From assembly GCA_015060445.1 (NCBI GenBank), contig SUYL01000042.1:1-64000 (forward strand): a stretch of 64,000 nt of DNA, written 5' to 3'. This document shows positions 1,990 through 13,369 of the stretch, in pieces. Under the pieces are notes generated by a model. The model did not search any database. It was not told the origin of the DNA and saw only the letters and a program-made list of their open reading frames with translations. The position numbers and the translations under genes are program-made. Origin of the DNA: Bacteroidales bacterium (GTDB lineage: Bacteria > Bacteroidota > Bacteroidia > Bacteroidales > UBA932). Each line of letters begins with the position of its first letter. Position 1 is the first letter of the stretch.

Positions 1990-4900
1990 TTACAAATTTA
2001 ATAACTTAATTGAAATGCGCAATACCTCATCATCACCCCATTCAACTTCGTCTGCACCTTCAAGCCTGTCTGCAAGTTCTATGCTTCCACACAAAGTCTG
2101 CCCACATACATATTCATTGAACTCCTGCAATGATTCTGCCACATCATCCCTTTTCTCAATCTTAACCTCAACTTTGTCTGTAACCTCAAAATCCTTGCCT
2201 TTCCTCAAGTTCTGGATTCTGTTTACAAGTTCCCTTGCAACGCCCTCTCTCCTGAGTGAATCGGTAATTGTAATATCCATTGCAACTGTAAGTTTTCCCT
2301 CTGTTGCAACCAGCCAGCCCGGCATATCCTCAGAAGTAATCTCATAATCCTCCTTCTCAAGCACAACCTCACCTGCTGCCAAAGCAAACTTATAGGCATC
2401 TGACATCTCAATTTGTGTAATGTCACTCTGTGAGAACTGGGCAAATGCTGCAGCAATATCTTTCATCATCTTGCCGTATTTCTTGCCCAAAGTCTTGAAG
2501 TTAGGTTTAATTTTCTTGGTAATCAGACCTTCTGTATTGGTTATAAATTCAACTTCCTTAATATTTACCTCTCCAAGCACCAGATTCTTAACCTTCTCAA
2601 ACTGCTCCTGAATCTTAGGGTCGAGTACAGGAATGATGATTTTTGCAAGTGGCTGCCTTACCTTAATGTTCACTTTTCTTCTCAATGCAAGAATCATTGA
2701 TGAACTCAACTGTGCCAAAGCCATCCTCTCCTCAAGGTCCTTGTCTATATATTTCTCCTCAACCTCAGGCATAAGCACAAGGTGTACAGAGTTCTCCTGG
2801 TGCATTCCTGAAACTGCGTTAAGGTCGAGGAACAGTCTCTCCATAAAGAACGGGGCAATTGGCGCTGCCAGAATTGCCACAGTCTCAAGGCAAGAGTACA
2901 ATGTCTGGTATGCAGCCAGTTTGTCATCTGTCATTGAACCGCCCCAGAAACGTTTTCTGTTCAAGCGCACGTACCAGTTGCTCAAATGGTCACACACAAA
3001 ATCCTGTATCTTTCTTCCTGCAGTTGTAACATCATAATCCTCATAGCAAGCCTTCACATCCTTAATGAGGCTGTTCAGGTATGATATGATCCAACGGTCA
3101 ATCTCAGGACGGTTTTCTACAGGCACCTGAGGAGCCTTGTTGTCAAACCTGTCAACATTTGAATACAATGCAAAGAACGAGTATGTATTGTACAATGTCC
3201 CGAAGAATTTTCTCTTAACCTCATCCACACCTGCAAAGTCAAACTTGAGGTTATCCCAAGGCTGTGCATTTGTAAGCATATACCATCTCAAAGAGTCAGC
3301 ACCGTACTCATCCAATGCCTTGAAAGGATCAACCGCATTGCCAAGACGCTTGCTCATCTTGTTTCCAACCTTGTCAAGTACAAGACCGTTTGAAAGCACT
3401 GTCTTATATGCAACCTTCCTGTTCACCATTGTAGAAATTGCATGAAGGGTAAAGAACCATCCGCGTGTCTGGTCAACGCCCTCTGCAATGAAATCTGCAG
3501 TCTGGCCGAACTGAGGTTTTCCAAGATTCTCCAACCCCTCCTGTGCAAAAGGCATTGCACCTGAATCAAACCACACATCAATAAGGTCCAGTTCCCTCTT
3601 CATTGGCTGGCCGCTTGGGGATACAAGAATGTACCCATCCACATATGGTCTGTGAAGATCTATCTTTTCATAGTTCTCCTTTGAGAAATCTCCTGGAACA
3701 AACCCTTTATCCTTCAATGGGTTTGATGCCATGAATCCTGCTGCAACAGATTTCTCAAGTTCGTTGTAAAGTTCCTCTGCAGAGCCTATGCACATCTCCT
3801 CCTTCTTGTCTTCTGTCCTCCAGATAGGGAGTGGAGTACCCCAGTAGCGGCTGCGTGAAAGGTTCCAGTCCTGAAGATTCTCAAGCCATTTTCCAAAACG
3901 TCCGGTACCTGTACTCTCAGGCTTCCAGTTGATGGTTTTGTTCAATGCAATAAGTTCATCCTGCACTGCAGTAGTTCTGATAAACCATGAATCCAAAGGA
4001 TAATACAATACAGGTTTGTCTGTCCTCCAGCAATGAGGATAGTTATGTGTATGCTTCTCTATCTTGAATGCCTTGTTGGCCCCCTTCATCATAAGACATA
4101 TTACAACATCCAATGTCTCTGCGGCGGCAGCAGCCTTCTCGTCATATACTTTATTTACAGTGAACTGCGGATCATATGCATTCTTAACCCATTTCCCCTC
4201 GTACTCCTTGTAGAGATCCACATCCACACACTGTTTTACAAACTCCTCATCAAGTTCATCCATCATGTAGAACTTGCCGGTAAGGTCAACCATAGGGCGG
4301 GTCTCACCGCTCTTGTTTATCATAAATAGTGAAGGGATACCTGCAGCCTTTGCAACAAACGCATCATCAGCACCAAAAGTAGGGGCAATATGCACAATAC
4401 CTGTACCGTCCTCTGTTGTTACATAATCTCCAGGAATAATGCGGAAAGCCTTATCTGAAGCATCGCTCCATTTACCTTTCTCATCTACAGACACAGGTTT
4501 TACCCAAGGTATCAACTGCTCATACTCCATACCCACAAGTTCAGGTCCCTTATACTCTGCAACCACTTTAAATGGAACAAGTTTGTCTCCAGGTTTATAA
4601 TCCTCCAGTGCCAGTTCCTCTGCCTTCTTGTTGAAATGTGAGTAGAGCAGGCTCTTTGCAAGAACCGCTGTCATCTTCTCACCTGTATATGCATTGTAGG
4701 TCTGTACCGCAACATAATCAATCTTAGGTCCCACACAAAGTGCCACATTTGAAGGGAGTGTCCACGGGGTAGTTGTCCATGCAAGGAAATAAGGTGTACC
4801 CCACTGGGCCATCTCTGCCTTAGGATTCTTTATTCTGAACTGTCCTACAACTGTAGTATCCTTCACATCCCTGTAGCAGCCCGGCTGGTTCAACTCATGG

Positions 4901-5472
4901 GAACTCAAGCCTGTACCGGCAGCAGGAGAATATGGCTGGATGGTATAACCTTTATACAACAGCCCTTTACCGTAAATATCCTTCAGCAGGTGCCACAAAG
5001 TCTCAATATACTTGTTGTCATAAGTTATGTAAGGGTTCTCCATATCCACCCAGTAACCTATCCTCTCTGTAAGGGAAACCCACTCCTTTGTATATTTCAT
5101 CACCTCCTTGCGGCAGGCGCTGTTATAGTCGTCAACTGAAATCTTCTTCCCGATATCCTCTTTGGTTATACCCAACATCTTCTCCACACCAAGTTCAACA
5201 GGAAGGCCATGAGTGTCCCAACCTGCCTTTCTCTGCACAAGATAACCGCTCTGTGTCTTGAAACGGCAGAATGCATCCTTTATTGCCCTGGCCATAACGT
5301 GGTGGATACCCGGCATTCCGTTTGCCGAAGGAGGTCCTTCAAAAAACACAAACTTCTTTGCCCCTTCCCTGGCCTTGAGCGTATTCTCAAAACACTGTTC
5401 TGCTTTCCATTTCTCAAGCACACTTCTATTTATCTCTACTAAATCAAGACTTTTATATTCTGCGAAACCCAT
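1990..5472 (-). CDS. ileS: Isoleucyl-tRNA synthetase
   Basis: A 1160-residue class I aminoacyl-tRNA synthetase that charges tRNA-Ile. The HIGH-type ATP motif appears as PGIHHVMARA near residue 55, and KMSKR as GNKMSKRLGN in the second half. Between them lies the editing (CP1) domain with motifs such as AWTTTPWTLPSN. The C-terminal region contains the anticodon-binding helices and an extension. It is longer than the roughly 940-residue E. coli enzyme and is of the long type seen in Bacteroidetes. It heads the ileS-dksA-lspA operon and is divergent from the CvpA gene. Identification is secure. Confidence 0.97.
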   Translation of the reverse strand: MGFAEYKSLDLVEINRSVLEKWKAEQCFENTLKAREGAKKFVFFEGPPSANGMPGIHHVMARAIKDAFCRFKTQSGYLVQRKAGWDTHGLPVELGVEKMLGITKEDIGKKISVDDYNSACRKEVMKYTKEWVSLTERIGYWVDMENPYITYDNKYIETLWHLLKDIYGKGLLYKGYTIQPYSPAAGTGLSSHELNQPGCYRDVKDTTVVGQFRIKNPKAEMAQWGTPYFLAWTTTPWTLPSNVALCVGPKIDYVAVQTYNAYTGEKMTAVLAKSLLYSHFNKKAEELALEDYKPGDKLVPFKVVAEYKGPELVGMEYEQLIPWVKPVSVDEKGKWSDASDKAFRIIPGDYVTTEDGTGIVHIAPTFGADDAFVAKAAGIPSLFMINKSGETRPMVDLTGKFYMMDELDEEFVKQCVDVDLYKEYEGKWVKNAYDPQFTVNKVYDEKAAAAAETLDVVICLMMKGANKAFKIEKHTHNYPHCWRTDKPVLYYPLDSWFIRTTAVQDELIALNKTINWKPESTGTGRFGKWLENLQDWNLSRSRYWGTPLPIWRTEDKKEEMCIGSAEELYNELEKSVAAGFMASNPLKDKGFVPGDFSKENYEKIDLHRPYVDGYILVSPSGQPMKRELDLIDVWFDSGAMPFAQEGLENLGKPQFGQTADFIAEGVDQTRGWFFTLHAISTMVNRKVAYKTVLSNGLVLDKVGNKMSKRLGNAVDPFKALDEYGADSLRWYMLTNAQPWDNLKFDFAGVDEVKRKFFGTLYNTYSFFALYSNVDRFDNKAPQVPVENRPEIDRWIISYLNSLIKDVKACYEDYDVTTAGRKIQDFVCDHLSNWYVRLNRKRFWGGSMTDDKLAAYQTLYSCLETVAILAAPIAPFFMERLFLDLNAVSGMHQENSVHLVLMPEVEEKYIDKDLEERMALAQLSSSMILALRRKVNIKVRQPLAKIIIPVLDPKIQEQFEKVKNLVLGEVNIKEVEFITNTEGLITKKIKPNFKTLGKKYGKMMKDIAAAFAQFSQSDITQIEMSDAYKFALAAGEVVLEKEDYEITSEDMPGWLVATEGKLTVAMDITITDSLRREGVARELVNRIQNLRKGKDFEVTDKVEVKIEKRDDVAESLQEFNEYVCGQTLCGSIELADRLEGADEVEWGDDEVLRISIKLLNL

Positions 5473-5568: not shown

Positions 5569-6069
5569 ATGAACATAGGTGTATTGGACATAATTATTCT
5601 GGTGGCAATTGCCGCGAGCGCAGTTTGGGGAATATTCAAGGGGTTTGTAAGGCAGATTGTAAGCATTCTTGCCCTTATACTTGGTATCTGGTGTGCCGCA
5701 AGGTTTACAGAAACCCTCTCCAGCCAGGTAAAAGAGTGGTTTACCCTGGAGATGGCCCAACAGACACTCCATATAATAATGTTTGCCGTAATATTCATTG
5801 TTGTAATGATACTTGCCAATTTCATTGGTAAGGGGGTGGAGAGTATAATAAAACTCAGCATGCTGGGATGGCTCAACCGTATTCTGGGCTTCCTGTTTGG
5901 TGCGTTCAAGGCAATAATCATTATGGCCGTGGCTGTTTATGCCATAGAATACCTAAACGGAATATTCAATATCATACCTCAAGATTTTTTTTCCAAATCT
6001 GAAGGATACAAGTTTCTCGGCGATTTCGCCCACAATTTTTTCCCTTTTTTGCATAATTGCTTTTCTTAA
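5569..6069 (+). CDS. CvpA family inner-membrane protein
   Basis: A 166-residue integral membrane protein with four predicted helices, near residues 5-25, 30-48, 65-85 and 105-128. The segment VWGIFKGFVRQIVSILALILG and the later GWLNRILGFLFGAFKAI are typical of CvpA/colicin V production family proteins. In E. coli CvpA is linked to envelope function and colicin V export; its biochemical role is not settled. It lies 80 bases before the peptide exporter gene and may be cotranscribed, but it is a widespread housekeeping family, so proximity alone does not make it part of the export system. Confidence 0.85.
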   Translation: MNIGVLDIIILVAIAASAVWGIFKGFVRQIVSILALILGIWCAARFTETLSSQVKEWFTLEMAQQTLHIIMFAVIFIVVMILANFIGKGVESIIKLSMLGWLNRILGFLFGAFKAIIIMAVAVYAIEYLNGIFNIIPQDFFSKSEGYKFLGDFAHNFFPFLHNCFS

Positions 6070-6149: not shown

Positions 6150-8276
6150 ATGGCATACGGTTCCCAAATACTCCTGCAACTTGCAGAATTTCCACAATGG
6201 TCCCTCTTGGGGAGAAGGATAAATGTAAGGCAGCACTACAAATATGACTGTGGGGCGGCATGTCTTGCCTCCATTGCCGCATATTACGGTATCTCCTCCT
6301 CCCTTGCACAAATAAGGATGGAGTGCGGATGCACCCCTGAAGGGATCTCAATTCAGGGGATAATGGATGGTGCAGCGCATCTGGGGCTCAAGGCCAGAGG
6401 TCTGCTCTCCAAAGACAAGGAGATCTCCGGGCTACTGGGGATTGGAGATCCTTTCATAGCCCACATAAAGGAGGAAGGGGGCTATCTGCATTATGTGGCA
6501 GTTTACGCCATAAACGGCAAACACCTTAAAGTTATGGACCCGGCAGAGGGAAAAATTGCAAAGGTACCACTTGGGGAGTTCCTGCATAAATGGACCGGGT
6601 ACATCATTGCACTTGCCCCCGACCTTGGGATTGGGGAAACAGATACGGCAGAAGAGGAACCCGGCCTGCTCTCCAGGCTGTTGAAGGGAAATGCATGGGA
6701 ACTGCTCCTGGCATTCCTGGCCACCGCCATCTGCATAGGGGCATCAATATCCGCCACATTCATACTCCAGCAAATTATAGACAACATTGTACCTGGAGGG
6801 AATATGCCTGCGATGTATGGGGTATGCATTGCAATGCCCCTGCTCATGCTCCTCTCACTGCACATGGGGTACAAGGCGGCCAGGCATATAATAAGATGCA
6901 GCGTAAAGATGGAGAGCCTGCTGGTATCCTCCTACATTGGAAAGATATTTGACCTTCCCCTACGCTTCTTTGAGAACTACACCCCGGGGGACATCTCCTC
7001 CAGGAGAGATGACATTGAACTTATCCGCAACTTTGTTACCGGAAACATAATTGGGATGGCTGCAAGCATACTCACCGTAGCGGGTTCATTGGGGACAATG
7101 CTCCTGTACAACACCCGTCTGGCATCCATTGTAGCGGCATCAATACCCGTTTACTGGCTCCTTTACAGAATCTCATACAAATTGAACAGCAAATACGGGA
7201 AGGGTGTTGCCCTGGCCAATTCATCATTTGAATCTGCCCTTCTGGAGGGGATTTCCTCCTCTGCATCACTCAGGCACTACAATGCCATGGAACTTGCTAC
7301 AGACAAAATAGGGAAAGCGCATCTCACCCTAATGGAGAAAATCCAGCACTCCGCAGCAAAGGCGAACCTGCTGCAGACCATGGTTCAGGGCACCTCAAAC
7401 ATGCTTATATGCATAGTGCTCATATACGGCTCCTTTGCAGTTATGGAGGGAGAAATGACATTGGGAGAACTGGCAGGGTTCTATTCCCTGTGCTCTTTCT
7501 TTACAGTTCCGGTAAATGACCTCATTGAGGGGAGCAATTCTTTGGCAAAGGCAAAGGTTGCCTGCCGCAGGATATCTGAAATTCTCTCCCTCAAAGGAGA
7601 AAAAGAGGAGGACAAAATTCCACTCACCCCACCTGAAGGTGATATACAGATAAAAGGGATCCATTTCAGACACCCCGGGAGGGCCCCTTTGTTTTCGGGA
7701 TTCTCCGCCACAATAAAAAGGGGATGCATAAACATTGTACAGGGGGAGAGCGGATGCGGCAAAAGCACCCTCATGCACCTGATAATGGGTGATTATCTTC
7801 CCGACAAAGGTGAAATATGCTGTGCAGGGATAAATGTACGCCAACTGGCTCCCCGGCAGTGGCGGGAGATGATAGGATATGTGGAACAGCGTCCGCAACT
7901 GCTCAATTCCACTATTCTGGAAAACATAACACTGGCAGATGAAAAACCCGACATCGGAAGGGTTACGGATATATGCCGTTCCCTCAATATGGAGAGGATT
8001 CTCATGGAATTCCCTCAGGGGCTCCTTACACGCATAGGGAGCAATGGAGAGGGGTTGTCGGGAGGAGAATGCCAGAAAATATGCATAGCACGTGCAATGT
8101 ACAGGAATCCTCCCATCTTCGTTTTTGACGAGGCCACCTCGGCCCTCGACCGGCAGAGCGGAGAGTTTGTGGCCGGATGCATCCGCAGGCTCAGGGACGG
8201 GGGAAAGACAATAATATACATCTCCCACAAGAGGGAAACGGGAATAATTGCAGACAACGTTGTATCAATCAAATGA
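6150..8276 (+). CDS. Peptidase-containing ABC transporter (C39 peptidase, double-glycine peptide exporter)
   Basis: A 708-residue bacteriocin-type exporter. Residues about 23-145 form a C39 cysteine peptidase: catalytic Cys34 in YKYDCGAACL, His114 in YLHYVAVY, Asp130 in VMDPAEG. Residues about 170-470 hold the transmembrane domain. The nucleotide-binding domain carries Walker A GESGCGKST (near 533), signature LSGGE (near 636), Walker B IFVFDEATSAL and an H-loop ISH. Such proteins cleave leader peptides after Gly-Gly while exporting the core. Two genes for double-glycine peptides follow directly, then TolC and an HlyD-type adaptor, which makes the locus a self-contained type I export system. 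The N-terminus has about 22 residues before the usual start of the C39 fold; an internal start is possible but no better ATG exists. Confidence 0.93.
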   Translation: MAYGSQILLQLAEFPQWSLLGRRINVRQHYKYDCGAACLASIAAYYGISSSLAQIRMECGCTPEGISIQGIMDGAAHLGLKARGLLSKDKEISGLLGIGDPFIAHIKEEGGYLHYVAVYAINGKHLKVMDPAEGKIAKVPLGEFLHKWTGYIIALAPDLGIGETDTAEEEPGLLSRLLKGNAWELLLAFLATAICIGASISATFILQQIIDNIVPGGNMPAMYGVCIAMPLLMLLSLHMGYKAARHIIRCSVKMESLLVSSYIGKIFDLPLRFFENYTPGDISSRRDDIELIRNFVTGNIIGMAASILTVAGSLGTMLLYNTRLASIVAASIPVYWLLYRISYKLNSKYGKGVALANSSFESALLEGISSSASLRHYNAMELATDKIGKAHLTLMEKIQHSAAKANLLQTMVQGTSNMLICIVLIYGSFAVMEGEMTLGELAGFYSLCSFFTVPVNDLIEGSNSLAKAKVACRRISEILSLKGEKEEDKIPLTPPEGDIQIKGIHFRHPGRAPLFSGFSATIKRGCINIVQGESGCGKSTLMHLIMGDYLPDKGEICCAGINVRQLAPRQWREMIGYVEQRPQLLNSTILENITLADEKPDIGRVTDICRSLNMERILMEFPQGLLTRIGSNGEGLSGGECQKICIARAMYRNPPIFVFDEATSALDRQSGEFVAGCIRRLRDGGKTIIYISHKRETGIIADNVVSIK

Positions 8277-8333: not shown

Positions 8334-8510
8334 ATGAAAACTGATGTTTTAACAGATTGTCATGCAGAACAGTTGCAGTATGTGATGGGCGGCACCGTCG
8401 CTGCCTGTGAATTTGACCTGTGGGGATATTTCAAGAGGGCATTCGCATTCCTCAAGGAGTATCACCAGGAGATAATAAGAGGCTTGAAAAAAGGGTGGAA
8501 CAATTTTTGA
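8334..8510 (+). CDS. Double-glycine leader peptide 1 (candidate bacteriocin precursor)
   Basis: A 58-codon gene, 57 bases after the C39 exporter. Residues 1-20 read as a double-glycine leader ending VMGG at 17-20, with Val at -4, Leu at -7 and Glu at -9 relative to the cut, as C39 exporters require. The predicted core is 38 residues, starts TVAACEFDLW and ends LKKGWNNF. It is rich in aromatic and basic residues, has a net charge near +2, could form an amphipathic helix, and has one Cys at residue 25. The second peptide gene starts 13 bases downstream. Function as a bacteriocin or signal is inference from leader plus context. It lacks the Cys pair expected of bacteroidetocins and I recognise no named family. 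Confidence 0.82.
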   Translation: MKTDVLTDCHAEQLQYVMGGTVAACEFDLWGYFKRAFAFLKEYHQEIIRGLKKGWNNF

Positions 8511-8512
8511 AA

Positions 8513-8519
8513 AAGGAGG
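8513..8519 (+). promoter_or_regulatory. Unusually strong Shine-Dalgarno site for peptide 2
   Basis: AAGGAGG ends 4 bases before the ATG at 8524. Bacteroidetes genes seldom carry a full Shine-Dalgarno sequence, and neighbouring genes here do not, so it stands out. It supports the reality of the second small gene. Confidence 0.6.
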
Positions 8520-8523
8520 ATTT

Positions 8524-8700
8524 ATGGAAACTTTTGTTGAAATAGGAACCTGTACAGCAGTAAAGGTATTCGGTGGCAAGGACAAGGATACCGCCAGACT
8601 GGTTGAATTTATTGCCGAGTGCATAGGAAGTATTGCCAAAGCAATATATATGATCAACAAGTTCAGGAAACTGTTCACAAACCCTGCAACAGTTTATTGA
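8524..8700 (+). CDS. Double-glycine leader peptide 2 (candidate bacteriocin precursor)
   Basis: A second 58-codon gene, 13 bases after the first. An 18-residue leader ends VFGG, with Val at -4, Ala at -7 and Ile at -12, consistent with a C39 substrate. The predicted core of 40 residues begins KDKDTARLVEFIAECIGSIA and ends NPATVY. It has net charge near +3, a hydrophobic central stretch likely to be helical and a single Cys at residue 33. Two adjacent unlike peptides of equal length suggest a two-component (class IIb-like) bacteriocin. No separate immunity gene is evident. An alternative is a pair of signalling peptides. The gene overlaps, in another frame, a spurious N-terminal extension of the TolC reading frame. 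Confidence 0.78.
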   Translation: METFVEIGTCTAVKVFGGKDKDTARLVEFIAECIGSIAKAIYMINKFRKLFTNPATVY

Positions 8701-8706
8701 AAAAAA

Positions 8707-8740
8707 CCGGGGGGGCACACCACATTTTGTGGCCCCCTTT
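8707..8740 (+). terminator. GC-rich hairpin between peptide 2 and tolC
   Basis: GGGGG (8711-8715) pairs with CCCCC (8733-8737) and CCACA (8720-8724) with TGTGG (8728-8732), leaving a 4-base bulge and a 3-base loop, followed by TTT. It may stop or reduce transcription after the peptide genes so that peptides exceed exporter subunits. Confidence 0.55.
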
Positions 8741-8765: not shown

Positions 8766-10088
8766 ATGAAACCGTGTAAATTGTCACTATTGCTCTGTTC
8801 AGCACTTCTTATGTATCAGAGCGCATTTCCCCAAGCCAAATGGACCCTGGAGCAGTGCATCAGTTATGCCAAGGAAAACAACCTGCAGGTAAAGCAGATG
8901 GAACTGGGGGAACAACAGGCTGAGAACAATCTCCAGGCAGCAAAAATGGAGTATCTCCCCTCTGTAAATGCATCAATGGGGCACAACATGAGTTGGGGGC
9001 GTTCAGTAAACCTCAATGACCTTGAGATTGTAGAGAACAAACTCTCACAAAGTTCATCCATGAGTCTCTCGGCCTCCTTGCCTCTATTTGAAGGGCTAAG
9101 GAAGCAGAACAACATAAAAAGCACACAGAAACAACTGGAAATTGCCAGAACAAACACGGCAGAACAGAAGGACAACATTTCAATTGCTGTGGTTAAAGGG
9201 TATCTCCAGGTTCTCCTGTGCAAAGAGATTGAGAGGTGTGCCCAGCAGAGTTACAACAGCGTTGCCTCACAACTCAAGACCACAGAAGAACTGGTGGAGG
9301 CGGGAAGCCAGACATACAGTTCACTTCTGGAGATAAAATCACAACTGGCCAATGAAAAACTGCAATTGGTAACGGCAAGCAACAACACCTCCAGTGCAAT
9401 GCTGGAACTCGCCCAACTGCTCAACCTCCCCAACGACGGGAGTTTTGACATTGCCGTTCCGGAGAGCAATCTCCTTCCCCCTGCAATAGGCCAGGATGAA
9501 CTTGAGGAGATATTCAGCACTGCAGAAGGGCTGCCCCGTATCCGCAAGGCGGAACTTGCCCTCCAGCAGAGCAAACTGCAATATAAAATGCAGAAAGGAG
9601 CTGCACTCCCCACAATCTCTTTCAGTGCCGGATACAGCACCTTCTACAGCGACAACCAGAGGACAGCCTTCTTTACACAGTTCGACAACAACAGAAACCC
9701 GTCAATGGGCTTCAGCCTGAATATCCCAATTTTCAACAACTGGAGAAACAATACTGCAATAAGGAATGCCAGGTCAAACATGGAGAGTTCCAGGATTGGA
9801 CTTGAAATCTCCAGACAGGAACTGATGAAGGAGATACAACTTGCATTCAACCAGGCACAAAGCAGTTACAACAAAATGGAAGCGGCAGCCGGCAACAGGG
9901 ATGCCGCAATGGAGTCCTTCAAACTCACACAGGAGAAGTTCAATTTGGGAATGCTCAACGGCACAGATTATTCCACCGCCAAGGCAAATCTGTTCAAGGC
10001 AGAATCTGAGTGGCTACAAAGCAAATACCAGTATATATTCCAGCACAAGATATTGGATTATTACAGAAATGTTCCTCTAACCTTATAA
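8766..10088 (+). CDS. TolC family outer-membrane channel protein
   Basis: A 440-residue outer-membrane efflux protein. The start at 8766 gives a signal peptide (KLSLLLCSALLMYQSAFPQ); longer readings of the frame run back through the second peptide gene and are not credible. The mature part shows the TolC repeat, WTLEQCISYAKENNLQVKQ at the start and long coiled-coil helices around residues 100-230 and 300-420. It forms the trimeric channel that joins a periplasmic adaptor to the outside. Between the peptide genes and the HlyD-type adaptor, it is the exit duct of this export locus. A TAnnTTTG match (8753-8760) sits almost on the start codon and may give a very short leader. Confidence 0.9.
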   Translation: MKPCKLSLLLCSALLMYQSAFPQAKWTLEQCISYAKENNLQVKQMELGEQQAENNLQAAKMEYLPSVNASMGHNMSWGRSVNLNDLEIVENKLSQSSSMSLSASLPLFEGLRKQNNIKSTQKQLEIARTNTAEQKDNISIAVVKGYLQVLLCKEIERCAQQSYNSVASQLKTTEELVEAGSQTYSSLLEIKSQLANEKLQLVTASNNTSSAMLELAQLLNLPNDGSFDIAVPESNLLPPAIGQDELEEIFSTAEGLPRIRKAELALQQSKLQYKMQKGAALPTISFSAGYSTFYSDNQRTAFFTQFDNNRNPSMGFSLNIPIFNNWRNNTAIRNARSNMESSRIGLEISRQELMKEIQLAFNQAQSSYNKMEAAAGNRDAAMESFKLTQEKFNLGMLNGTDYSTAKANLFKAESEWLQSKYQYIFQHKILDYYRNVPLTL

Positions 10089-10098
10089 CCATACAAAA

Positions 10099-11325
10099 AT
10101 GGCAAAATCAAAGAAAAAAATATTGCTCGCGGCATCAGCCGCAATCATAGTAATCCTAATAATTATAGGGCGCAGCAAAGGGCCGGAAGGGATTGAAGTA
10201 ACACTTGAGAAGCCTCTCATTGGAACAATAGTTGAATCCATCCCGGCAAACGGGAAAATACAGCCTGTAACCGAAGTGAAGATAAGCCCCGACGTTTCAG
10301 GTGAGATAATAAAACTTAATTTCCAGGAGGGAGATGCCGTTGAGAAAGGGGATCTTATATTGCAGATAAAACAGGATGTATATATCTCTGCAAGAGACCG
10401 CGCAGAGGCGTCACTCAATGCTGTAAAGGCTCAGTACCTGCAGCAGCAGGCACAGGTGCAGCAGATTGGGCTCACCCATAACCGCAACATTGCCCTGTAC
10501 GAAAAACGGACAATTTCTCTGGCCGACTACGAGAAGTCGTGTGCCGAGTACGAAATTGCCATGAGCCAACTGAAGGCAGCCGAGTACAATGTGCTGAGTG
10601 CCCAGGCATCATTGAAGGAGGCCGAGGAGAATCTTGTAAAGACAAACATTTATGCCCCCATGAGCGGCACCATATCCAAATTGAGTGTTGAGATTGGAGA
10701 GCGTGTTGTAGGAACCACACAGATGGCCGGTACAGAGATGCTCCGTATTGCAGACCTCAACCAGATGGAGGTTCTTGTAGATGTAAACGAAATAGACATA
10801 ATACGTCTTTCTGCCGGGGATACCGCCACAATTGAGATTGACGCATACCCCAACAGAAAATTTTCCGGCATAGTTACGCAGGTTGCAAACTCCTCAAAGA
10901 ACTCCGGCACAACAGTAACTGCAGACCAGGTAACCAACTTTGAGGTGAAGGTGAATATCCTCCCACAATCATACAGCGACCTCACCCTGAACAACAATAT
11001 TCCCCTAAGGCCGGGAATGAGTGCTTCAGTTTCTATCCGCACAAGCAGGAAAGATGGGATAATTAAAGTACCTTTGCAGTGCATAACAACAAGGAAAGGG
11101 CTTTCAGACTCCCTTGATATGGCAGATGAGACCATACAGAAGGTATTTGTATTCAACAGCCTGGACGGTACTGTGGGTGTCCGCAAGATAGAAACCGGTA
11201 TACAGGATATGAGCCACATAGAGGTAACCTCAGGGCTGGATACAAACTCCCTTATAGTAACAGCACCATTCAGTGCCATAAGCAAAGATCTGAGGGAAGG
11301 GAGCCATGTTATAAAAACCAACTGA
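10099..11325 (+). CDS. HlyD-type periplasmic adaptor (membrane fusion protein)
   Basis: A 408-residue membrane fusion protein. One N-terminal helix (residues about 7-24) anchors it in the inner membrane. A split biotinyl-lipoyl domain follows (VTEVKISPDVSGEIIKLNFQ, then TNIYAPMSGTISKLSVEIGE), with a coiled-coil hairpin at about residues 95-185 and beta-barrel domains towards the C-terminus. It bridges an inner-membrane transporter and TolC. Related Bacteroidetes adaptors usually precede MacB-type permeases; none is present here, so the partner is most likely the C39 ABC exporter upstream. It starts 10 bases after tolC and ends 7 bases before tsaB. Confidence 0.9.
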   Translation: MAKSKKKILLAASAAIIVILIIIGRSKGPEGIEVTLEKPLIGTIVESIPANGKIQPVTEVKISPDVSGEIIKLNFQEGDAVEKGDLILQIKQDVYISARDRAEASLNAVKAQYLQQQAQVQQIGLTHNRNIALYEKRTISLADYEKSCAEYEIAMSQLKAAEYNVLSAQASLKEAEENLVKTNIYAPMSGTISKLSVEIGERVVGTTQMAGTEMLRIADLNQMEVLVDVNEIDIIRLSAGDTATIEIDAYPNRKFSGIVTQVANSSKNSGTTVTADQVTNFEVKVNILPQSYSDLTLNNNIPLRPGMSASVSIRTSRKDGIIKVPLQCITTRKGLSDSLDMADETIQKVFVFNSLDGTVGVRKIETGIQDMSHIEVTSGLDTNSLIVTAPFSAISKDLREGSHVIKTN

Positions 11326-11332
11326 TTTTAAT

Positions 11333-12031
11333 ATGGAGAAATTTATATTTCTGATTGAAACAGCCACAGATTCCTGCTCCGTTGCATTGGCCAAAGATGG
11401 CTGCATTGTAGCAGAGAAATATATTAACGAGCCAAAGGCACACGCCAGCGTTCTTGGGGGCTTCATTACAGATATCCTTAAGGAGAACTCCATTACAATG
11501 GATGATTGCAGCGCTGTTGCTGTAAGCAAAGGCCCAGGGTCTTACACAGGGTTGAGGGTTGGCGTTTCATGCGCAAAAGGGCTCTGCTACGGAGCATCAA
11601 AGCCTCTCATATCTGTATGCACTTTGGCTACAATTACACAGATGGCCCTCGACAACAGGCTCTATCCCGGGAGCGGAGATTTTCTGGTTGTACCTATGAT
11701 TGATGCCCGCAGAATGGAAGTTTACACAGCCAACTTCAACTCCAGGGGGGAGCAGTTGACACCGGTAGAGGCCAAAATTCTGGATGAGAACTCCTATGCA
11801 GAAGAACTTGCTGCAGGCCCTGTACTCTTTACGGGAAACGGGGCAGAGAAGTTCAGGAATCTGGTTGCAGGAAACCCTAATGCATATTTTGCACCGCAAC
11901 AGCCGCATGCCTCAGGAATGAGGGTAATAGCCAACGCCAAACTTGAAGCCGGGGAGTTTGAAGACAATGCCTATTTTGAGCCGTTCTACCTCAAGGACTT
12001 TGTAGCGGGCAAGCCAAAAAAACTTCTGTAA
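11333..12031 (+). CDS. tsaB: tRNA threonylcarbamoyladenosine biosynthesis protein TsaB
   Basis: A 232-residue member of the ASKHA/Kae1-like fold. The N-terminus FLIETATDSCSVALAKDG and the motif SKGPGSYTGLRVGVSCAKGL are characteristic of TsaB. It works with TsaD and TsaE to place threonylcarbamoyl on A37 of ANN-decoding tRNAs in the cytoplasm. It follows the adaptor gene by 7 bases and so may be cotranscribed with the export locus, though it is a housekeeping gene. Downstream is a repeat element and a convergent gene. Confidence 0.93.
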   Translation: MEKFIFLIETATDSCSVALAKDGCIVAEKYINEPKAHASVLGGFITDILKENSITMDDCSAVAVSKGPGSYTGLRVGVSCAKGLCYGASKPLISVCTLATITQMALDNRLYPGSGDFLVVPMIDARRMEVYTANFNSRGEQLTPVEAKILDENSYAEELAAGPVLFTGNGAEKFRNLVAGNPNAYFAPQQPHASGMRVIANAKLEAGEFEDNAYFEPFYLKDFVAGKPKKLL

Positions 12032-12036
12032 AGCAG

Positions 12037-12085
12037 AAGATATAACAAACACAAAGAGTGCATAAGATATAATAAACACAAAGAG
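12037..12085 (+). repeat. Two 22-bp direct repeats, period 27
   Basis: AAGATATAACAAACACAAAG at 12037 recurs as AAGATATAATAAACACAAAG at 12064; 21 of 22 bases match. The second copy leads directly into the left arm of the long inverted repeat. Confidence 0.7.
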
Positions 12086-12198
12086 AGAAGAAATTCACCT
12101 TTAAAACTGAATCCCTCCCAAATCTGCAATTTGGGCCCCTCCCGTTCACGAGACCACGGGCGGTCACGGTTTTAAAGGTGAATTTCTTCTCTCTTTGT
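12078..12198. repeat. 30-bp perfect inverted repeat element between convergent genes
   Basis: Bases 12078-12107 are the exact reverse complement of 12169-12198. The 61-base middle holds two smaller hairpins: CCCAAAT/ATTTGGG near 12118-12136 and CCCGT/ACGGG near 12141-12160. The whole could fold into a branched stem about 120 nt long. It sits between tsaB (+) and the TlpA-like gene (-). There is no T tract, so a plain terminator is doubtful; a MITE-like element or a bidirectional RNA structure is possible. Confidence 0.8.
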
Positions 12199-12214: not shown

Positions 12215-13369
12215 TTATTTCACAGCCTTTTTAATTGCAGCCTCAATCTCGCCTTTATTTGTAAGGTTACCCCTTGCAACTATATCCCCATTTTTATTGA
12301 AAACAAACATATATGGAATTGTTGCAATATTGTAGGTTGCTATTGATGGTGATGCCGATCCTTTTCCGTCACATACACTTATCCAAGGAAGTTCCTGCTC
12401 CTTAACGGCTGTAGCCCATGCAGTCTTGTCTACATCAAGGCTAACCTGGTAAATCTCCAGGCCGTTGCCGCTGTATTTCCTGTACAGTTCCTTAAGGTCG
12501 TTGTTGAACATCTTCTGGCTTGCCTCTGTAATGGTCCAGAACATAAGGATGAAAGGTTTGCCCTCAAGAGATGACAAATCTACATTCTTTGCATTTATGT
12601 CGGGAAGAGAAATGTTAGGGAAAGACTCCTCTCCTGCTTTGGCAATCTTGTCTGCCAGAAGGGTTGCATTCTGGCCGCTCTTTATCTGCCCCTGCAATGA
12701 CTTGAGATATACAGAACCCGGATAAATGGTTGCAAGAGAATCATGTACCCTCTGCATGAGCAGAAAATCCTTTTCTGCCGAGAATACAGGCAACTGGTTT
12801 GCTACAGACTGGTACAGAACCTGCACATTTGCAAATGCATAAGGGTTCTCCATAATCTTCTTTATTGTAGCCTGCCTGTGTTTTATGTAGAGTCTACCCA
12901 ACTGCGCACTCAAATCCTTTGCCAGAGCAGTCTCCTTTTTGTCAACAGCCTCTGCAAATTTTGCCGAGAGTGCATTGAATTCCGCATTTACCTGAGCCAA
13001 TGCATTCTCATAATGCTGAAGCAGCAAAGACTCCTCAGAGCCCTCAATTACAAGCCCTTTGCCAAGGGTATCAACCTTAACCGACACATTGTCGCCCGGT
13101 TTGAGTATAAGGGAAGCAAGTCTTTTTCCGTTATATACAAGATAATAGAAGTTAGGCTCCTCTCCTGCCATTGCAATCTCTCCCTTTGCCATGCAATTGT
13201 CTCCTGTCTTGAGAGTGTCAACAGCACGCATCTGGCTTACCGCCAATTGGGCAACAATGATATCCTTTTTTGCAGCACCCTCAACATTGGCGCTGATTGT
13301 AGCCGAATTGTTTTTTGAACAGCCCACTGCCATAAGGGCAGCAAGGGCCAATAACATTACTTTTTTCAT
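12215..13369 (-). CDS. TlpA-like thioredoxin-fold lipoprotein (DUF4369 type)
   Basis: A 384-residue lipoprotein with a signal peptide ending LMAVGC (lipid Cys17). The N-terminal half resembles DUF4369 domains, which in Bacteroidetes precede thioredoxin-like domains. The C-terminal part (residues about 250-384) has the TlpA/AhpC fold: FPNISLPDINAKNVDLSSLEGKP, IPYMFVFNKNGDIVARG. The redox CxxC is missing: the position after FILMFW reads TITEAS instead of WCxPC. It therefore probably does not act as a thiol oxidoreductase and may have a binding role in the envelope. It follows HIT and greA on the minus strand with a 3-base gap. Confidence 0.82.
   Translation of the reverse strand: MKKVMLLALAALMAVGCSKNNSATISANVEGAAKKDIIVAQLAVSQMRAVDTLKTGDNCMAKGEIAMAGEEPNFYYLVYNGKRLASLILKPGDNVSVKVDTLGKGLVIEGSEESLLLQHYENALAQVNAEFNALSAKFAEAVDKKETALAKDLSAQLGRLYIKHRQATIKKIMENPYAFANVQVLYQSVANQLPVFSAEKDFLLMQRVHDSLATIYPGSVYLKSLQGQIKSGQNATLLADKIAKAGEESFPNISLPDINAKNVDLSSLEGKPFILMFWTITEASQKMFNNDLKELYRKYSGNGLEIYQVSLDVDKTAWATAVKEQELPWISVCDGKGSASPSIATYNIATIPYMFVFNKNGDIVARGNLTNKGEIEAAIKKAVK

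Follow-up and report, generated by a model that had tools for sequence, protein, structure and literature searches.

The window, i.e., the whole stretch of 64,000 nucleotides of Bacteroidales DNA that was analysed, derives from a genome of 67 contigs (2.18-Mb, completeness 87%). It contains an operon encoding an ABC exporter, two small peptides, here named A and B, a TolC-type channel and a periplasmic adaptor, and the operon is flanked by core genes:

1990..5472, minus strand: ileS-like class I aminoacyl-tRNA synthetase gene, upstream landmark (Pfam tRNA-synt_1, Anticodon_1, DUF5915)
5569..6069, plus strand: cvpA-like gene, upstream neighbour outside the export machine (Pfam Colicin_V)
6150..8276, plus strand: C39-peptidase ABC exporter (PCAT), 708 aa (Pfam Peptidase_C39, ABC_membrane, ABC_tran)
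8334..8510, plus strand: peptide A precursor gene, 58 aa; leader 8334-8393 (20 aa, ending VMGG), core 8394-8507 (38 aa), C-terminus GLKKGW
8524..8700, plus strand: peptide B precursor gene, 58 aa; leader 8524-8577 (18 aa, ending VFGG), core 8578-8697 (40 aa)
8709..8738, plus strand: terminator-like hairpin directly 3' of B, -18.8 kcal/mol, short T run (weak, z -1.37)
8766..10088, plus strand: TolC-type outer-membrane channel gene (Pfam OEP, two stretches)
10099..11325, plus strand: periplasmic adaptor gene (HlyD_D23; RND_mfp subfamily)
11333..12031, plus strand: tsaB-like gene, downstream neighbour (Pfam TsaD family)

The initial annotation had described two 58-codon genes right after a C39 exporter, with leaders ending in VMGG and VFGG and cores of 38 and 40 residues. 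Both frames, both leaders and both core lengths were recovered as described; the observation is correct and the feature is larger than first described. The start of tolC was set at the ATG at 8766, the longest open reading frame opening at the GTG at 8619. The synthetase is one that we take to be specific for isoleucine, and the downstream neighbour is presumably TsaB, a name given from its size. Past tsaB, a thioredoxin-like gene lies on the opposite strand (12215-13369), and this gene is kept at the cvpA-tsaB junction of two genomes that have no operon (G053, G059). Between the convergent tsaB-like and thioredoxin-like genes the window has an inverted repeat (12078-12198) whose perfect 30-bp arms enclose a centre of 61 bp, of which six further copies, with 78-92% identity across part or most of its length, are present in the genome, like a small dispersed palindromic element.

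A survey of exporters in 100 genomes including the window's own gave matches at E 1e-60 or better in 64, and 70 exporter loci, the window's and 69 others, were inspected. In 47 of the 70 an A-B pair is found in constant order, which bears out the linkage of both small genes to the exporter that the initial annotation had proposed to check; the 23 loci without the pair, mostly with distant exporters, were left out of the peptide alignments. The 47 pair loci are made up of the window, 36 of the 38 other sampled genomes of its genus and 10 of the 21 family genomes that belong to other genera. The two genus genomes without the pair (G001, G010) are those without an exporter match; both genes are present in each of the remaining 36, all of which have such a match, so that the close relatives keeping the exporter and lacking the small frames, which had been named as evidence against the assignment, were not encountered. 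Among the other-genus genomes an exporter match is present in 17 of 21, and seven of these 17 show no pair, each with a single exporter match (G040, G043, G044, G046, G054, G056, G057). In one of the seven the contig ends inside an A-like frame (L113, G054), two have a different gene order and no pair (L111, G043; L062, G046), and the exporters of the rest are 26-31% identical. A sister arrangement with the adaptor gene 5' of the exporter was seen in L062, L111, L113 and L181, and L113 lies at the ileS-cvpA site. The hairpin after B fails the T-run rule in the window, and 30 of the 47 pair loci pass it (at -14 kcal/mol or below, counted without a shuffle control).

Profiles of A and B built from the 47 members were searched against 199 genomes of the family and matched 103 (A) and 112 (B), i.e., about half of them, with matches outside the building set reaching 2e-20 for A (G124) and 7e-17 for B (G107). 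Both peptides were matched in 102 of the 103 A-positive genomes, where they are adjacent on one strand with A first and a median gap of 30 bases; A gave a single match per genome, and a second, weak B match occurred in two genomes. The only A-alone genome and three of the ten B-alone genomes were read, and all four have an unmatched frame with a GG leader in the partner's place, in the A-alone genome directly after A. One of these four, L181 (G129), also has a third frame (5224-5379) between the pair and tolC, again with a GG leader but with a core rich in proline. Among 393 genomes sampled across the order, B matched four, all in the same family. A large protein search returned 34 A and 46 B homologues, the few named ones being Bacteroidales, Bacteroidia, Rikenellaceae or Egerieousia entries; source-named B homologues include Candidatus Egerieousia, a Rikenellaceae bacterium and Bacteroidales bacterium CF. 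An exporter search of genome contigs found 27 loci, four of them close and the remainder distant, mostly from Acinetobacter.

The cores were described as cationic and helix-prone with one Cys each. The window cores carry charges of +2 (A) and +3 (B), and each is predicted by AlphaFold to form one long helix, spanning residues 29-57 in A (mean pLDDT 72, pTM 0.35) and 21-52 in B (mean pLDDT 80, pTM 0.44; block means of 93, 97 and 88 over residues 21-50); the low pTM values are expected of single helices. Across the 47 pairs core lengths range from 28 to 51 residues and charge is positive in 36 A and 44 B cores, with neutral or acidic cores in some genera (L064, L103, L107). The single Cys holds for the window and fails as a conserved trait, since 36 of the 47 A cores and 31 of the 47 B cores have none. 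All 47 A members have the GG and G50, which opens a C-terminal GxxxG motif whose second Gly, G54, is kept in at least 90%; all 47 B members have the GG and core G35. Of the 47 cores of each peptide, 43 A cores have a strict GxxxG (shuffles: mean 11.3, maximum 19), as do 31 B cores (shuffles: mean 8.6, maximum 16). A loose GxxxG-like form is present in all cores of both peptides, which for B is not above shuffles (mean 40.4, maximum 47). The window's own B has GxxxG-like spacings only. Controlling for exporter similarity leaves the similarities of A and B correlated (partial rho 0.35, 0/300 permutations), and their motif classes co-segregate, an extended A always accompanying a GxxxG-bearing B (18/18, uncorrected for phylogeny). 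In four genomes of one other genus of the family, g21, the B leader ends in AG, not GG (L162, L164, L165, L166).

The exporter had been correctly recognised as a C39 exporter: Peptidase_C39, ABC_membrane and ABC_tran were found and the catalytic residues are intact, with Q28 and C34 in 46 of the 47 pair loci (one gap) and H114 and D130 in all 47. The Gln, Cys, His and Asp of its N-terminal C39 domain, together with the transmembrane and ABC domains, place it among the PCATs, and the solved chains nearest to it are bacteriocin-transporter (PCAT) and ComA entries. In 45 of the 47 pair loci tolC is no more than 2 kb away from the exporter, and in 43 the adaptor is present. The claimed TolC and HlyD-type adaptor are both there as genes, but the adaptor passes the RND_mfp subfamily model (162.5 bits, cut-off 94.9) and fails that of type-I HlyD (67.1 bits, cut-off 208.65), so that HlyD-type is a loose label. 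As tolC and adaptor can occur where the exporter is missing, and G051 has exporter, A and B but neither of these two genes, the use of both by the exporter is something that we infer.

The recurring order is ileS-like gene, cvpA, exporter, A, B, tolC, adaptor and tsaB. An ileS-like gene was found in 41 of the 47 pair loci; cvpA or the ileS-like gene lies 5' of the operon in 39 of the 44 pair loci with room, and tsaB lies 3' of it in 22 of the 24 that offer 4.5 kb or more. Twenty loci chosen for their A match and drawn from seven other genera have the same order; one of them (L167) is without tolC and adaptor, and six from g21 add a CPBP gene. Since the operon is flanked by core genes, its fixed position alone is weak proof of descent. 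Exporter similarity tracks that of ileS (rho 0.59) and tsaB (0.67), and the similarities of the A and B cores track tsaB at 0.42 and 0.50; in each case 0/200 permutations were as high. This divergence in step with the flanks argues that the operon was mainly inherited rather than mobile; in much of the family its descent has been mainly vertical, and it has stayed at a single core position. In L067 and L100 the ileS-like genes are 99% and the exporters 74% identical, a mismatch which suggests recombination beside the operon and makes some exchange likely.

Natural absences divide the operon. Two genomes keep cvpA, tolC, adaptor and tsaB and miss exporter, A and B together (G010, G044, the latter with a distant exporter elsewhere in the genome), and a third has tolC, adaptor and tsaB without exporter, A and B (G050). 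The reverse, exporter, A and B present with tolC and adaptor missing, is seen in G051. In G045, G053 and G059 cvpA adjoins tsaB and the operon is absent, and in G001 cvpA and tsaB are rearranged, again with no operon. In G020 (L157), about 10 kb separates B from tolC. These patterns indicate that exporter, A and B form one module and tolC and adaptor another; outside the window's genus, an absence may equally reflect loss or a failure to gain.

Selection on the peptides was measured as pN/pS pooled across nine close pairs (eight for tolC and adaptor). The ratio is 0.16 for the A core, 0.17 for the B core, 0.28 for the A leader and 0.38 for the B leader, alongside 0.21 for the exporter, 0.12 for tolC and 0.09 for the adaptor. 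At 0.16-0.17 the cores are constrained coding sequence under purifying selection, and a diversifying arms race was not seen in the nine pairs. Fisher tests on pooled counts separate core from leader (p 0.04 for A, 0.002 for B, both uncorrected), but the contrast is softer than the ratios imply: in A, pN is alike in core (0.064) and leader (0.065), and the difference in ratio arises from pS.

The statement that no immunity gene is obvious holds for the operon of the window's genus, where no recurring third gene was seen by eye between exporter and tolC among the loci listed. In g21, a gene for a CPBP/Rce1-like membrane protease of about 240 residues lies between B and tolC in all seven loci read, an assignment made by Pfam on one locus and by tblastn to that locus for the other six. 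This Abi-type gene is a candidate for bacteriocin immunity, as CAAX/Abi genes within class IIb clusters are likely self-immunity genes (PMC10059821). CaaX proteases are also listed among genes near laterally transferred islands (PMC5380434), so that the g21 gene need not confer immunity. Nor does a missing immunity gene exclude a toxin, because producers of bacteroidetocins are self-inhibiting, an observation taken by the authors of that work to suggest that no immunity protein exists (PMC6671954). The vertical inheritance at a core site, the constrained cores and the CPBP gene in one other genus were not foreseen by the initial annotation.

Its suggestion that the peptides may belong to an undescribed family is strengthened, as the window's A and B match no Pfam or NCBIfam model at E 0.1. 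Among the 47 A members at E 0.01, ComC and BlpC were each matched once, by the same single member (E 3e-5 and 4e-4); the window's A matches neither ComC/BlpC model (PF03047, NF033215). Among the 47 B members at the same threshold, ThiJ_like and SecE were each matched once and a cyanobacterial bacteriocin model three times, weakly (best E 0.0085). Searches of the PDB with the A and B profiles gave weak matches to unrelated proteins only (best E 0.027-0.03). In the available text of the open-licence PMC literature, including PMC13289728, PMC10986499 and PMC12648078, the A-B pair is not described, and the IIBacFinder tables may hold these peptides.

Taken together, the pair is probably an unusually stably inherited two-peptide bacteriocin of an undescribed family. 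By analogy with the PCAT family, the C39 exporter would cleave the A and B precursors after GG and export the cores, with TolC and the adaptor as the likely outer conduit. The two helices would then join in the target membrane, as in class IIb and Cdz systems, through predicted contact faces formed by GxxxG in A and GxxxG or AxxxG in B. A producer without immunity in the operon might have an absent or altered target, be protected by a gene elsewhere, or tolerate self-inhibition as bacteroidetocin producers do. The constant pair, its shared absence with the exporter, GxxxG above shuffles, the A-B correlation, the helices, the g21 CPBP gene and the weak matches of three B members to a bacteriocin model favour the bacteriocin; the lack of an operon immunity gene in the window's genus, vertical inheritance, constrained cores, a window B without strict GxxxG, neutral or acidic cores in some genera, the separability of tolC and adaptor from the exporter and the ComC/BlpC match of one A member weaken it. 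Core-like inheritance and missing immunity being odd for a weapon, we give the reading as a whole a probability of about 0.5. More tentatively, A and B may constitute a core-inherited, obligate two-peptide system of the whole family, with GxxxG-paired helices and a conserved physiological or kin-directed role, of which g21 would represent weaponised offshoots with a CPBP immunity gene.

The same core-like inheritance, constrained cores and absence of an immunity gene from the operon of the window's genus would also suit a conserved two-peptide signal, in which the secreted A and B act as pheromones that kin perceive through a receptor encoded elsewhere, and the single A member matching ComC and BlpC points in this direction. 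However, neither a linked receptor nor a recurring third gene was seen between exporter and tolC outside g21 (by eye, with neighbours clustered), and the cores, with their GxxxG helices and lengths of 28-51 residues, exceed the usual size of a pheromone; a signal is thus rather doubtful. Still less probable is a self-directed envelope function, with the peptides inserting into or coating the producer's own outer membrane or surface. Presence in 36 of 38 other genus genomes, the constrained cores and the lack of immunity would be compatible with this, and CdzC of Caulobacter, which is secreted by type I secretion and stays surface-bound, provides a precedent (PMC5380434), but the pair is jointly absent from G001, G010, G044, G045, G050, G053 and G059, so that such a role would be dispensable or was never gained there, and the g21 CPBP gene fits self-protection better. 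A reading of the frames as spurious or degraded, with some other substrate for the exporter, might be suggested by the chance origin of small ORFs and the missing curated family; it is largely refuted and was rejected on linkage, on core selection, on shared absence with the exporter and on profile matches in genomes not used for building.

If the preferred two-peptide bacteriocin is confirmed as antimicrobial, it would be a new two-peptide class in Bacteroidota, mostly without a linked immunity gene in the genera seen; if the peptides are not antimicrobial, a bacteriocin-like design can become fixed as ordinary physiology. The pair spans about half of the sampled family genomes and has no curated family model. 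As a core-inherited system of the whole family it would, to our knowledge, be without precedent in Gram-negative phyla, and searches of the open-licence PMC literature listed no other family-wide, vertically inherited pair of this kind.

Among known systems, bacteroidetocins share the origin in Bacteroidetes, the GG leader and the C39 exporter, as well as self-inhibiting producers taken to be without immunity (PMC6671954). They differ in that each peptide carries two or more Cys, the two founding members having four, and in having a gene for a transmembrane protein, mostly a thiol oxidoreductase gene, and one peptide (PMC6671954). The A-B operon, i.e., exporter, A, B, tolC and adaptor, has neither the transmembrane-protein nor the thiol oxidoreductase gene, and membership was rejected on these partner genes and on the one Cys per window core; the lack of the bacteroidetocin Cys pair noted at the outset extends to the alignments, where two of the 47 A cores and none of the 47 B cores have two Cys.

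Full killing by class IIb bacteriocins needs both peptides together. The A-B pair resembles them in its adjacent genes for two different small GG-leader peptides and in the GxxxG or GxxxG-like motifs of both cores, which in the loose form for B do not exceed shuffles. Two different small peptides with helical cores and such motifs are found in, e.g., plantaricin S of Gram-positive bacteria, all class IIb bacteriocins characterised so far carry these motifs (PMC6382864), and GG leaders are present as in thermophilin 13 (PMC10059821). In contrast to class IIb, the A-B pair has tolC and an adaptor beside it, is mainly vertically inherited, has no meaningful profile match among solved chains and, in the window's genus, has no dedicated immunity gene in its operon, g21 alone having the CPBP gene.

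Colicin V type systems combine a single toxin peptide with an immunity partner. Their TolC-dependent export is alike in that a PCAT, an adaptor and TolC move a small peptide (PMC10352776). The Cdz system of Caulobacter, a contact-dependent two-protein bacteriocin, is likewise Gram-negative and uses type I secretion for two small leader-bearing GxxxG proteins, but the CdzC and CdzD zippers consist purely of small hydrophobic residues and an immunity gene, CdzI, is present (PMC5380434). Membership was rejected on zipper composition, the window's A having GLKKG where the Cdz zipper has no proline or charged residue (PMC5380434), and Cdz serves on as a working analogue. Horizontal acquisition and variable toxins are common among Cdz-like systems, for most of which a single toxin is predicted (PMC5380434), whereas the A-B pair is mainly vertical in its inheritance and constrained in its cores.
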